Below are positions 5,877-27,595 of a DNA stretch of 37,905 nt, piece after piece (the stretch's first letter is position 1; every line of letters begins with the position of its first letter). Source of the stretch: Actinomycetota bacterium. GTDB lineage: Bacteria; Actinomycetota; Acidimicrobiia; Acidimicrobiales; CAIXPF01. Both the position numbers and the translations under genes were made by a program. Location of the stretch: contig VGBO01000019.1 in the NCBI GenBank assembly GCA_016870475.1, forward strand, positions 1 to 37,905, in the 5' to 3' direction. The notes under the pieces are model-generated. The model had not been told where the DNA came from. It ran no database searches and saw nothing but the letters and a program-made list of their open reading frames with translations.

Positions 5877-6656
5877 TCAGGACCGACCGAAGTCGAACGT
5901 GGCGATCTCGGCGAGCTGTTCGCCGAGCCGCACGATCGCCGCGTCGAACAGCTCGCCACCGAGCTCCGCCGACGCACCGGTCGGGTCGCCGATGTGGCCG
6001 TCGGGCCCGAAGTCGTCGGCGAGCCAGCCGAAGGGCACCGACCCGCCGAACCGCACGTGACGGTTCGCGGCGAGCCGTTCCGGCACGTTCCGACGGGCGA
6101 GACCGAGGTCGACGAGGTCGGGGCGGAGGTGCAGGACGAGGGAGGTCTCGTGCAGCCCGCCGTGCACGCCCATGCCGGCCTCGCCGGCGTCACTCACCCC
6201 GCCGGCATCCGGTGGGACGGCCGGGTGCAGGAGGAACGTGCGCAACCCGTGGGCGAGGCGGACCTCCCGCAACGCCACCTGCAGCAACGCCGTGTTGCCC
6301 CCGTGCCCGTTGAGGAACACGAGCGTTCCCGCGCCCGTCGTCGCCACGGCACGCGCCACGGCGTCGACCGTGGCGAGCAGGGTCTGCGGGTCGACCCAGA
6401 CCGACCCGGCGAACCGGGCGTGCTCGTTCGACTTCGTGTAGGCGAGCGGCTCGGCGAGCCACAGGTCGAACGTGTCACCGAACCGGCGAACGGTCTCGGT
6501 GGCGACGGCCTCGGCGATGAGCAGGTCGGTGACGAAGGGCAGGTGCGGCCCGTGCTGCTCGACCGCGCCGAGGGGGAGCACGACGATCGACCGCTCGGAG
6601 AGCAGCTCGGCGACCTGGGGATGGCGCAGTTCGGCGAGGCGTCGGGTGGCGGGCAC
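5877..6656 (-). CDS. Creatininase-family amidohydrolase
   Basis: A 259-aa member of the creatininase / creatinine amidohydrolase fold. Metal-site residues are visible: Glu33 and His35 in LPLGAVEQHGPHLP, Asp44 in VTDLL, His118 in LNGHGGN, and Glu170 in VHGGLHETS. Known members open creatinine to creatine, cleave formamides in flavin and F420 pathways, or act in mycofactocin maturation (MftE). The SNEHARFAG segment and the lack of mycofactocin genes nearby argue against MftE. The substrate is open; the adjacent deaminase-like and sarcosine oxidase-like genes make a lactam such as creatinine plausible (inference). GTG 6656 follows TAGCGT by 6 bases (leaderless). Confidence 0.9.
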   Translation of the reverse strand: MPATRRLAELRHPQVAELLSERSIVVLPLGAVEQHGPHLPFVTDLLIAEAVATETVRRFGDTFDLWLAEPLAYTKSNEHARFAGSVWVDPQTLLATVDAVARAVATTGAGTLVFLNGHGGNTALLQVALREVRLAHGLRTFLLHPAVPPDAGGVSDAGEAGMGVHGGLHETSLVLHLRPDLVDLGLARRNVPERLAANRHVRFGGSVPFGWLADDFGPDGHIGDPTGASAELGGELFDAAIVRLGEQLAEIATFDFGRS

Positions 6657-6662
6657 GGCGTC

Positions 6663-6668
6663 ACGCTA
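6663..6668 (-). promoter_or_regulatory. -10 box TAGCGT, leaderless start of the creatininase-family gene
   Basis: On the minus strand TAGCGT is separated by 6 bases from the GTG start at 6656. Confidence 0.5.
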
Positions 6669-6720
6669 GCGAGGCGCCGACCCCCCTTCGCGTGTCCCAC
6701 CTCCCTTGCAGAATGTGCCC

Positions 6721-7548
6721 ATGACCTCCCCCACCCCCGACCTCGATTTCGACCTCGACGACGTCATCCACGAGAGCCAGGTCGACGCCAACCGATGTGG
6801 CGTCGTGTGGTTGCTCGCCCGTGGCCTGCAGGCCGAACTCGCCGATCTCCGCGTCGACGACGCGGGGGCGCTGCGCCCTTGCCCCGACATCGCGCCGACC
6901 ATGGAGCTCCTCGCCGGCCTCACCGACGCGGCGGTCGCTGCGGCCGACACCGTGCGCGAGCTCGCCGGTGGTCCGATGACACCCGAGGACGAGCAGGAGA
7001 TCCGCACCGCGGGCATCGAGGCGATGACCTTCACGTCCTCGGCCGAGGCGGTGTTGCGGCGTCTGTTCCTCGCGATCGTCGGTGTCGCCGCCGGGTTCCC
7101 GGACTCGTCACGTGTCAGTCGGGTCGACCGTGCGGCAGTCGACCAGTGGGCGATCTCCGGTGCGTACCTCCGGTCCTTCCAGGAGGACGGGATCCACCTC
7201 ATGTCGGCCACCCTCGACGAGCTCGAGGCCGAGCTCGCCGGCATCGTCGCCAGGCTCATCCTCGACGGCGGGTCGCAGTTGCTCATCGACCTCGACACCG
7301 ACGACGACGACGCCGACACGATCGTCGTCCTGACCGCGGAGGACGGGTCGGTCGTTTACGCGACCTCCGAGGAGGGGTCCGAACCCGTGGCACATCCCGA
7401 CCCGGTCCACCCCGCCCACGTGGCCGCCCACCTCGTCGAGGCGATATGCGAGCTCGGTGGTGCGGGGATCGAGTCGCTCGAGCGTGTCGGCGTGTTCCTG
7501 ATCGACGCCGTCGACGACGATCTCGAGGAGTTCGACGACGAGGCGTGA
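6721..7548 (+). CDS. Acidic protein of unknown function
   Basis: A 275-aa protein not recognised as a known family. It is strongly acidic, with Asp/Glu clusters at the N-terminus (DLDFDLDDVIHES), in the middle (LIDLDTDDDDADT) and at the very end (AVDDDLEEFDDEA). The N-terminal half looks helical and contains one moderately hydrophobic stretch (LRRLFLAIVGVAAGF, around residues 116-130), too short and isolated to claim a membrane span. There is no signal peptide. ATG 6721 is chosen over TTG 6706 because CAGAAT sits 6 bases before the ATG, the leaderless spacing seen across the window; there is no ribosome binding site for either. It is divergent from the creatininase gene. Codon use looks native. 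It probably acts in the cytoplasm; the function is unknown. Confidence 0.8.
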   Translation: MTSPTPDLDFDLDDVIHESQVDANRCGVVWLLARGLQAELADLRVDDAGALRPCPDIAPTMELLAGLTDAAVAAADTVRELAGGPMTPEDEQEIRTAGIEAMTFTSSAEAVLRRLFLAIVGVAAGFPDSSRVSRVDRAAVDQWAISGAYLRSFQEDGIHLMSATLDELEAELAGIVARLILDGGSQLLIDLDTDDDDADTIVVLTAEDGSVVYATSEEGSEPVAHPDPVHPAHVAAHLVEAICELGGAGIESLERVGVFLIDAVDDDLEEFDDEA

Positions 7549-25705: not shown

Positions 25706-26410
25706 TTGAGGTACGACGACGCAGCGGCCCCCTCCGAGGAGGGGGCCGTCGCGCGTCTACGGGCACGAGGCACCGACGCTCGACGCCGCCTGGCGACCAT
25801 CGTCGAGCAGGCCCTCGACGCCGTGTTCGAGTCGAACTTCGACGTGCGCAGCGCGTGGGAGGCCCTCGAACTGCTCGACGCCCCCGAGACCCGGGTGAAG
25901 GAGAGCGTCGCCCGTCGAGCGACGGAGTGGGCTGCGACCCGGGCGGTCGTGCGGGTCGGCAGCCGGTTCGGCGCCCGTGTGGCCGGCCGTCTCGCCGTAC
26001 CGGTCGGGCTCGCGCTCGAGTTCGGGTTCGCCGCGCGGGACGGGGTGCGGGAGTTGCAGGTGCTCGCCGGGTTCCTCGTGCACCGGCTGCGGGCCGCCGG
26101 CCATCCGGTCGACCGGGAGTTGGTGCGACGTGCGACGCTCGCCGTCTACCTCGAGCCGGCGCGTCGCCCCGACCTGCGCACCCCGGTGGCCCGTCGTGCG
26201 TTGGCGGTCGCCCGGGTGTGGTCGGTCGACGCGATCCCGCTCACCGATCGTCGCCGCCAGCAGCGAACCCGTGCCCGGGTCGATTTCATCGCCCGGCTCG
26301 ACCTCGACGTGCTGCACCACGACTGGGTGCTGGCCAGCGCGGTCGACGTCGGTGACGTCCCGCACCGCCCGCACCCGCCGGGCGAGTTGCCGCCCGGTCG
26401 ACCGGACTGA
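25706..26410 (+). CDS. Protein of unknown function
   Basis: A 234-aa protein not recognised as a known family. The body from about residue 25 is rich in Ala, Arg, Val and Leu and looks helical: RRRLATIVEQALDAVFES, then ARRATEWAATRAVVRVGSRFGARVAGRLAVPVGLALEFGFAA (longest apolar part about residues 85-110, possibly amphipathic or membrane-associating). A His/Pro-rich C-terminus follows (DVPHRPHPPGELPPGRPD). The only start is TTG 25706, 4 bases after the ferredoxin stop, which suggests translational coupling to it. The first 20 codons contain a strong GC hairpin, so the start is not secure. It converges on the selenoprotein with 7 bases between stops. The function is unknown. Confidence 0.65.
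   Translation: MRYDDAAAPSEEGAVARLRARGTDARRRLATIVEQALDAVFESNFDVRSAWEALELLDAPETRVKESVARRATEWAATRAVVRVGSRFGARVAGRLAVPVGLALEFGFAARDGVRELQVLAGFLVHRLRAAGHPVDRELVRRATLAVYLEPARRPDLRTPVARRALAVARVWSVDAIPLTDRRRQQRTRARVDFIARLDLDVLHHDWVLASAVDVGDVPHRPHPPGELPPGRPD
25725..25748. terminator. GC hairpin just after the ferredoxin gene, inside the next reading frame
   Basis: The arms CGGCCCCCTC (25725-25734) and GAGGGGGCCG (25739-25748) pair perfectly over 10 bp around a 4-base loop. There is no U-run. It would suit a terminator or attenuator for the ferredoxin mRNA, but it also encodes residues 7-15 of the following frame. Confidence 0.45.
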
Positions 26411-26417
26411 TCGGGCC

Positions 26418-27359
26418 TCAGTCGTCGAAGCCGGCGCAGGCCCGGCAGGCGATCTCGCTGCCGTGGCGCTCCTCGGCGAGGAGCCGGTCGTCGTCGGTCT
26501 GGTACTGCGGGGTGTCGTGTCGTTCGGTGCGCGAGTCGCCCGTTCGGCCCGAGGCGCTGTTCCGCACCTTGGTGCGCATCGGGTCCGCCCGCCATGCGTC
26601 GTCGCCCCAGGAGGCGCCGAGGTCGACGATCGTCCCCGGTGTGGTGACGGTCTCGAGGCAGCGCAGGCCGGCCTCGACGAGTGCTCGCTGCCCGTCGGGG
26701 TCGTGCGGCTTCCCGGTCGTGTGACCGAGCGGGAAGTCGACGAACGCGCCACGCGGCACCGCCGCCGACGCCGTGATCGACCAGGCGGACGTCATCGAGA
26801 CCGTCGGGATCCCGGCTTCTTCGAGGGTTCGTGCGATCAGACCGACCGACTGGTGGCAGACCGGTCAAACCGGGACGAGGAGGACGACGTCGACCCCCTG
26901 GGCGACCATGCGGTCGCGGAGCGTCGGGGCGAGTTCCTCGCGCACGCGACGTGCCGAGTAGATCCCGCCCATGAACGTGTACGCCTCGGGAGCGAGACCG
27001 CCGATCACCCCCTGCTCGACGAGCCGGTGCAACGGTTCGAGCGGGAACACGACGTTGACGTCCTGCCGGGCGTCGGTGAGGTCGTAGGCGAAGTGGGTGA
27101 CCCGCAGGTCCTCCGCCGGGGTGTCGGTGCCGATCACCCGGTAGGAGTGGTCGTCCTTGAAGTGGAAGGCGATCTGGCCGGCCCGGTAGATCCCACCGGA
27201 GGCGATCAGGCCGACCGTGCAGTCGGCGAGCGGCTTCGTCATCGGGGCCCACGGCACCGGACCCTCGTTGTGCACCCACGCATACGGCGGGTACCCGAGC
27301 GTGTCGTAGGTGTCCCGGGTGACCTGGATGTAGTCGACGGCCTGCGGCGGGGCGTTCAT
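26418..27359 (-). CDS. Glycine/sarcosine/betaine reductase B-family selenoprotein, TGA at codon 165 read as Sec
   Basis: A 313-aa protein if the TGA at 26865-26867 is read as selenocysteine; otherwise the frame splits in two. Both halves are in one frame and both belong to the GrdB/PrdB-like family: DYIQVTRDTYDTLGYPPYAW, DLRVTHFAYD, DVNVVFPLEPLHRLVEQGVIGGLAPEAYTFMGGIY before the stop, and SMTSAWSITASAAVPRGAFVDFPLGHTTG after it (parts quoted only as landmarks). The junction reads VLLVPV-Sec-PVCHQSVGLIA, a UxxC redox motif with Sec165 and Cys168. The family's founding members reduce glycine, sarcosine or betaine; these shorter relatives have no proven reaction. A C-terminal CRAC pair (Cys305, Cys308) may recycle the active site. 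The start is ATG 27359, or GTG 27362 directly before it. Decoding needs selA, selB, selC and selD elsewhere. Confidence 0.85.
26841..26857 (-). promoter_or_regulatory. Candidate bacterial SECIS hairpin after the Sec codon
   Basis: On the minus strand, 7 bases after the TGA, GCCACC can pair with GGUCGGU (one bulged C) around a 4-base loop AGUC. The loop begins 13 bases after the UGA, a little closer than usual for bSECIS elements. This was found by eye; other pairings such as GACCG with CGGUC compete. Confidence 0.35.
26865..26867 (-). other. Selenocysteine (TGA) codon
   Basis: This is an in-frame TGA at codon 165. It is followed by Pro, Val and Cys codons, and the family sequence continues without a break. 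Confidence 0.8.
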
Positions 27360-27367
27360 CACGTCGG

Positions 27368-27390: not shown

Positions 27391-27404
27391 CGGGCATCGC
27401 CACA

Positions 27405-27595
27405 ACGCGCTGTGGGAGAGCGTCCACCCCGCCAGGGTGGGCCGCCGAAGGAGCAACCGCCCCGGAATCTCTCAGGCAGAAGGACCGCAGTGTCGGGCGA
27501 CTCTGGAAAGCAGCGGCGGTCCCCGGACCGGCCGCTCACCGACGGGGGAAGCCGGGAGACCGGTGAAACTCTCAGGTACCGAGACAGAGGGGGCG
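27405..27595 (+). ncRNA. Tandem glycine riboswitch
   Basis: The leader carries the glycine aptamer hallmarks twice. First unit: GGGAGAG (27414-27420), GCCGAAGGAGCAA (27444-27456), ATCTCTCAGGCAGAAGGACCG (landmarks at about 27467-27486), then ACTCTGGAAAGCAG. Second unit: CACCGACGGGGGAAGCC, GAAACTCTCAGGTACCGAGACAGAGGGGG (from about 27563; landmarks CTCTCAGGTACC and GACAGAGGGGG). The layout is like the gcvT leaders of Streptomyces. Glycine binding normally turns on glycine cleavage genes, and gcvT follows directly. Confidence 0.93.

Follow-up and report, generated by a model that had tools for sequence, protein, structure and literature searches.

A PrdB-like selenoprotein gene from an actinobacterium that lacks the partner genes of proline and glycine reductase

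The window, a stretch of 37,905 nucleotides from an actinobacterial genome assembly, carries on its minus strand a complete PrdB-like gene (26418..27359; ATG at 27359, stop TGA at 26420-26418) for a protein of 313 amino acids. A second, in-frame TGA (26865..26867, minus strand) is found at codon 165, and judged by its sequence context the gene almost certainly encodes a selenoprotein with Sec at this residue. The protein is closer to PrdB of D-proline reductase than to GrdB of glycine reductase, yet is neither by its sequence, and very probably it does not function as a D-proline or glycine reductase at all. Of the preliminary description of this gene, made from the DNA alone, the selenoprotein part held and the identification as GrdB did not.

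Recoding of the in-frame TGA

Two minus-strand open reading frames (26865-27362 and 26418-26795) share one frame and meet at VLLVPV-TGA-PVCHQSVG. They had been proposed to form one protein that gene callers would report as truncated; coordinates, shared phase and joint were all exact, and standard gene calling does give two ORFs. Read through, the frame yields a UxxC active site, UPVC at residues 165-168, in which Cys168 (26856..26858, minus strand), the presumed resolving cysteine, is invariant among orthologs and replaced by Asp in paralogs with the motif UPLDHQ. Homology runs unbroken across the TGA. The part downstream of it evolves as coding sequence under purifying selection: dN of the window gene is 0.20-0.32 against a dS of 0.67-1.5 on both sides of the TGA and, for the 3′ part compared with four relatives, 0.20-0.27 against 0.67-1.15, much as upstream.

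At the protein level the family was found in 17 of 41 genomes searched, and 11 of these 17, counting the window's own, have an ortholog of the window gene; all of these orthologs have the TGA, and the relatives' proteins are 49-70% identical to the window protein. In named genomes 483 relatives turned up, and the best 80 of them were retained; together with the window and its relatives they make up a set of 86 orthologs. The codon at the Sec position is TGA in 85 of these and TAG in one, so a Sec codon is present in 86 of 86 and the in-frame TGA is conserved far beyond chance. Carriers include Actinomycetota, Pseudomonadota, Myxococcota, Binatota, Chloroflexota, Acidobacteriota, Spirochaetota and Thermodesulfobacteriota. 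Cys stands in place of Sec in five paralogs and in homologs from Roseomonas and Haematobacter, and the expectation that residue 165 would be kept as Sec or Cys was thereby confirmed.

The window's genome (2.45 Mb, 98.7% complete) contains the entire Sec machinery. selA (C25, 374 bits), selB (C58, 261 bits, over the cut-off), a tRNA-Sec with anticodon TCA (UCA; C25, 66.7 bits) and selD (353 bits) were all found when these four genes were searched for. selD has a single in-frame TGA of its own (G000:C59:11095-12048, L055) and is itself, by its sequence, to be read as a selenoprotein gene. Together with the codon conservation, this machinery bears out the earlier reading of the UxxC motif as one with Sec.

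The single TAG is found in the ortholog from Blastococcus tunisiensis DSM 46838 (L098, match 6001-6888). The same genome has a match to the tRNA-Sec model (69 bits; L176 1501-1596) with the anticodon CTA, a tRNA that ARAGORN labels as tRNA-Pyl. Members of the Geodermatophilaceae read UAG as Sec; the passage on this recoding names formate dehydrogenase, UGSC proteins and AhpC, but not the present protein (PMC5330540). A TAG codon matched by a CTA tRNA-Sec gives strong independent support for Sec at this residue, and for selenium incorporation the UAG-coded copy of this cultured Blastococcus is an unusually clean test case.

Folding of the 60 bases after the TGA had been proposed as a check for a bacterial SECIS. 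Across the clade a hairpin is predicted whose five-base apical loop begins 17 bases past the UGA and has a G in its first two positions. Averaged over the 86 sequences, the best hairpin energy is -16.0, compared with -13.4 in synonymous-codon shuffles (Wilcoxon p ~4e-8, the 86 sequences being treated without regard to relatedness). At offsets 18-26 the first base of the Ser/Thr171 codon pairs with a wobble base of a later codon. This pair is T-A in 60 orthologs and A-T in 10; most Sec paralogs have A-T and one has G-C, and the pair is broken in seven of seven Cys forms tested. Covariation and the shuffle test thus support a SECIS-like hairpin for the clade. The window's own copy (26833..26857, minus strand; loop GGTCG, 17 bases after the TGA, at 26843-26847) is weak: it forms seven of nine core pairs, with U-U and C-A mismatches in the stem, shares a T-T at pair 18-26 with its nearest relatives and, folded as a single sequence, is no better than shuffles (z-score 0.44).

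Paralogs in the window's genome, at C49, C6 and C14, likewise have one TGA each, and the motifs met among paralogs are UPVCHQ, UPLDHQ and UPFCTR. UPLDHQ paralogs, in which Sec is kept and the resolving Cys is changed to Asp, occur in three genomes of two families (L067 8001-8759, L072 6905-7660 and L073 8001-8753, all on the minus strand). Four further paralogs (L069, L088, L090 and L091) are about 375 residues long and combine a U-P-x-C-T-R motif with a long C-terminal domain. The Cys paralogs L074, L081, L082, L083 and L084 are nested within a Sec clade of the same family, which by sequence is consistent with a change from Sec to Cys in genomes that retain the Sec machinery. On plasmid p546-2 of Roseomonas haemaphysalidis (L183 5001-7386) the Cys homolog ends five bases from a convergent selO, the gene of the protein adenylyltransferase SelO.

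Family position and missing partners

The best curated model for the window protein is that of PrdB (TIGR04483), which matches residues 35-247 with 171.3 bits and so falls short of its cut-off of 300. Three annotated PrdBs, whose motif is UGTCH or CGTCH and whose genes adjoin prdA, score 407-453 bits on the same model. The GrdB models were both missed (TIGR01917, 48.2 bits against a cut-off of 602.2; TIGR01918, 47.7 against 65.45), and the earlier assignment to GrdB must give way to a position closer to PrdB, albeit below the PrdB cut-off. PF07355 (GRDB) was passed with 38.2 bits against a gathering cut-off of 22, in the C-terminal part of the profile only. The model of the UGSC family (NF041046) gave 12.9 bits against a cut-off of 125; likeness to this selenoprotein is very weak and confined to the surroundings of the Sec motif, and the motif differs. 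In the tree, whose root serves drawing only, the window protein falls into a clade of 35 rows with support 98/97; clostridial PrdB lies apart from it and groups with other paralogs.

With PrdB the window protein shares a UxxCH active site with Sec or Cys, but the motif is UPVCHQ instead of UGTCHR. It has in addition an N-terminal block from Y10 to W28 (YIxxTRxxYxxLGYxPYxW; 27276..27332, minus strand), which precedes the first PrdB-aligned residue, and a C-terminal CxxC tail, and its genome has no prdA/prdC operon. To GrdB it is homologous in the Sec-bearing C-terminal half of the latter; it lacks, however, the UxxCxxC motif. The current family name is probably wrong.

PrdB acts together with PrdA in D-proline reductase. 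Matches to PrdA/GrdE (PF09338) and to GrdA (PF04723) were absent from the window's genome and from the ten other ortholog-bearing relatives. Both domains are present in four other genomes (G014, G026, G034 and G035), and all four are devoid of an ortholog of the window gene; among the relatives, true glycine reductase is cleanly separated from the window-type protein. The remark that short members of the family have no proven reaction is apt for the partnerless clade, but not for PrdB, which works with PrdA. The glycine reductase genes, GrdA with a TGA and GrdE, are those at G014:C77, G034:C53 and G035:C161 and in G026, all of them genomes of the same taxonomic order.

Predicted structure and C-terminal tail

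The AlphaFold model has a mean pLDDT of 93 and is built of alternating strands and helices. In it, Sec165 directly follows a strand (158-162) and directly precedes a helix (166-181), a usual place for a catalytic redox residue. Towards the C terminus, the motif PQYQ (residues 284-287; 26499..26510, minus strand), present in 85 of 86 orthologs, starts a confidently modelled tail helix (289-299, pLDDT ~95). The protein ends with a CxxC (CRAC, residues 305-308; 26436..26447, minus strand) whose pLDDT of 58-68 is consistent with a mobile tail. This CxxC is found in the tails of 72 of the 86 orthologs and missing in the other 14, and is therefore not essential to the clade; a codon-by-codon check of the tails without it found no second Sec. 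A structure search of the PDB returned no match at E 0.001 or better (best Z 7.9, uninformative), and a sequence search against solved structures gave nothing credible.

Discussion

Starting from the observed recoding context, family position, missing partners and conserved Cys pairs, we regard a stand-alone, thiol-dependent selenoreductase with a Sec165/Cys168 pair, in most cases with a CxxC tail, as the best explanation as a whole and as rather more probable than its rivals taken together. SelB and tRNA-Sec would read UGA at codon 165 as Sec, aided by the hairpin just downstream, and the protein would act without a pyruvoyl partner (PrdA or GrdE). Sec165 may then serve as nucleophile on an activated substrate and Cys168 may resolve the product as a selenenylsulfide. 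It is tempting to speculate that the flexible C-terminal CxxC draws on thioredoxin or a low-molecular-weight thiol for electrons and so re-reduces the active site; for this tail-relay mechanism the arguments seem to us evenly balanced.

A different chemistry, less probable but deserving attention, would be the reductive cleavage of a C-N, C-S or C-halogen bond via a Se-alkyl intermediate, with a protein that activates its substrate by itself and a tail that is only structural. The homology to the Sec domain of GrdB and PrdB speaks for it, as do the UPLDHQ paralogs: they keep Sec without Cys168, an indication that the key first step can be carried out by Sec alone. A GrdB-like protein is also mentioned in a study on monofluoroacetate dehalorespiration in Synergistota (PMC10838667). 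Known members, however, need a pyruvoyl subunit for substrate activation, which is absent here, and there are no substrate-specific neighbour genes. That the protein serves as PrdB in a functional D-proline reductase, with a PrdA that is too divergent to be recognized or missing from the assembly, is highly improbable. PrdB is indeed its best curated model, and metagenomic proteins of this sort are filed under proline reductase in the literature, but 171 bits are far from the scores of real PrdBs, real prdB genes adjoin prdA, PF09338 is absent from a 98.7% complete genome as well as from ten ortholog-bearing relatives, and a cytochrome oxidase subunit I (512 bits) makes aerobic respiration likely in this organism. 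Finally, a true stop, a sequencing error, a pseudogene scar or another amino acid inserted by a changed code is virtually excluded, for although standard gene calling gives two ORFs and the window's own hairpin is weak, 85 TGA and one TAG, the latter matched by a CTA tRNA-Sec, are conserved over many assemblies, selection is purifying downstream of the TGA, the genome has a complete selA/B/C/D set, and no changed code table is needed since TGA also ends the gene normally.

Selenoproteins of this kind are already known from marine metagenomes, and the window gene adds a new member. In the Sargasso Sea data of 2005, a "proline reductase PrdB" with Sec in a UxxC motif ranked third in abundance among the selenoproteins with 42 sequences (PMC1088965), the Global Ocean Sampling of 2008 had "PrdB" in 235 Sec and 110 Cys forms (PMC2398784), and in a later marine survey it made up 6.4% of the selenoprotein genes (PMC9402790). 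Compared by description, the marine proteins of the first two studies agree with the window protein in the UxxC and in the occurrence of Sec beside Cys forms; they are abundant in surface seawater, and their name was given by homology (PMC1088965, PMC2398784). An aerobic actinobacterium had been considered an unexpected place for a classical glycine reductase; selenoproteins of the present kind are no surprise in aerobic settings, given their abundance in surface seawater reported in 2005 and 2008. New here are the absence of the partner genes, the comparison of scores with those of real PrdBs, the tail, the covarying pair seen in Sec forms only and the UAG-coded copy. In the literature searched, terms such as PrdB-like or GrdB homolog were not found in use.

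For twenty years, a family among the most abundant marine selenoproteins has borne the name of proline reductase by homology alone. Members of the clade lack the partners of proline and glycine reductase in the genomes searched, and the name would thus mislead models of amino-acid metabolism. Tentatively, and with less confidence than for the tail relay, we suggest that the clade may represent a widespread, unnamed class of stand-alone selenoenzymes of aerobic and mixed environments, in which the nucleophilic Sec chemistry of the GrdB/PrdB type would proceed without a pyruvoyl partner and be regenerated by the protein's own CxxC tail; much of the marine "proline reductase" could then be this enzyme. 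With its clear active-site motif and its confident structural model, such a stand-alone selenoprotein lends itself well to a search for the reaction.

Genomic neighbourhood

No conserved operon and no substrate-specific neighbours that would support a pathway were found at the ortholog loci. Of the 86 loci, 34 have an enoyl-CoA hydratase gene at a distance of up to about 6 kb, and eight of the first 36 loci (mostly paralogs) have a CoA-transferase III gene nearby. The window's genome alone has 48 copies of the former and at least 42 of the latter in its 2.45 Mb; both families are so common in such genomes, and their frequency at the loci so near to background, that a function guessed from these neighbours was dropped. 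Phage records gave no match.

A tandem glycine riboswitch (27403-27589, plus strand; 63 and 44 bits) starts 44 bases from the start codon of the selenoprotein gene, on the opposite strand, and lies ahead of gcvT (27627) and gcvP. A link to glycine metabolism via this adjoining riboswitch and gcvT/gcvP was rejected because other genes intervene in relatives and the adjacency is not conserved. On the other side of the selenoprotein gene, positions 25706-26410 of the plus strand encode a protein of 234 amino acids that has no Pfam match; in several genomes of the family it keeps its place, with a ferredoxin gene on one side and the selenoprotein gene on the other.
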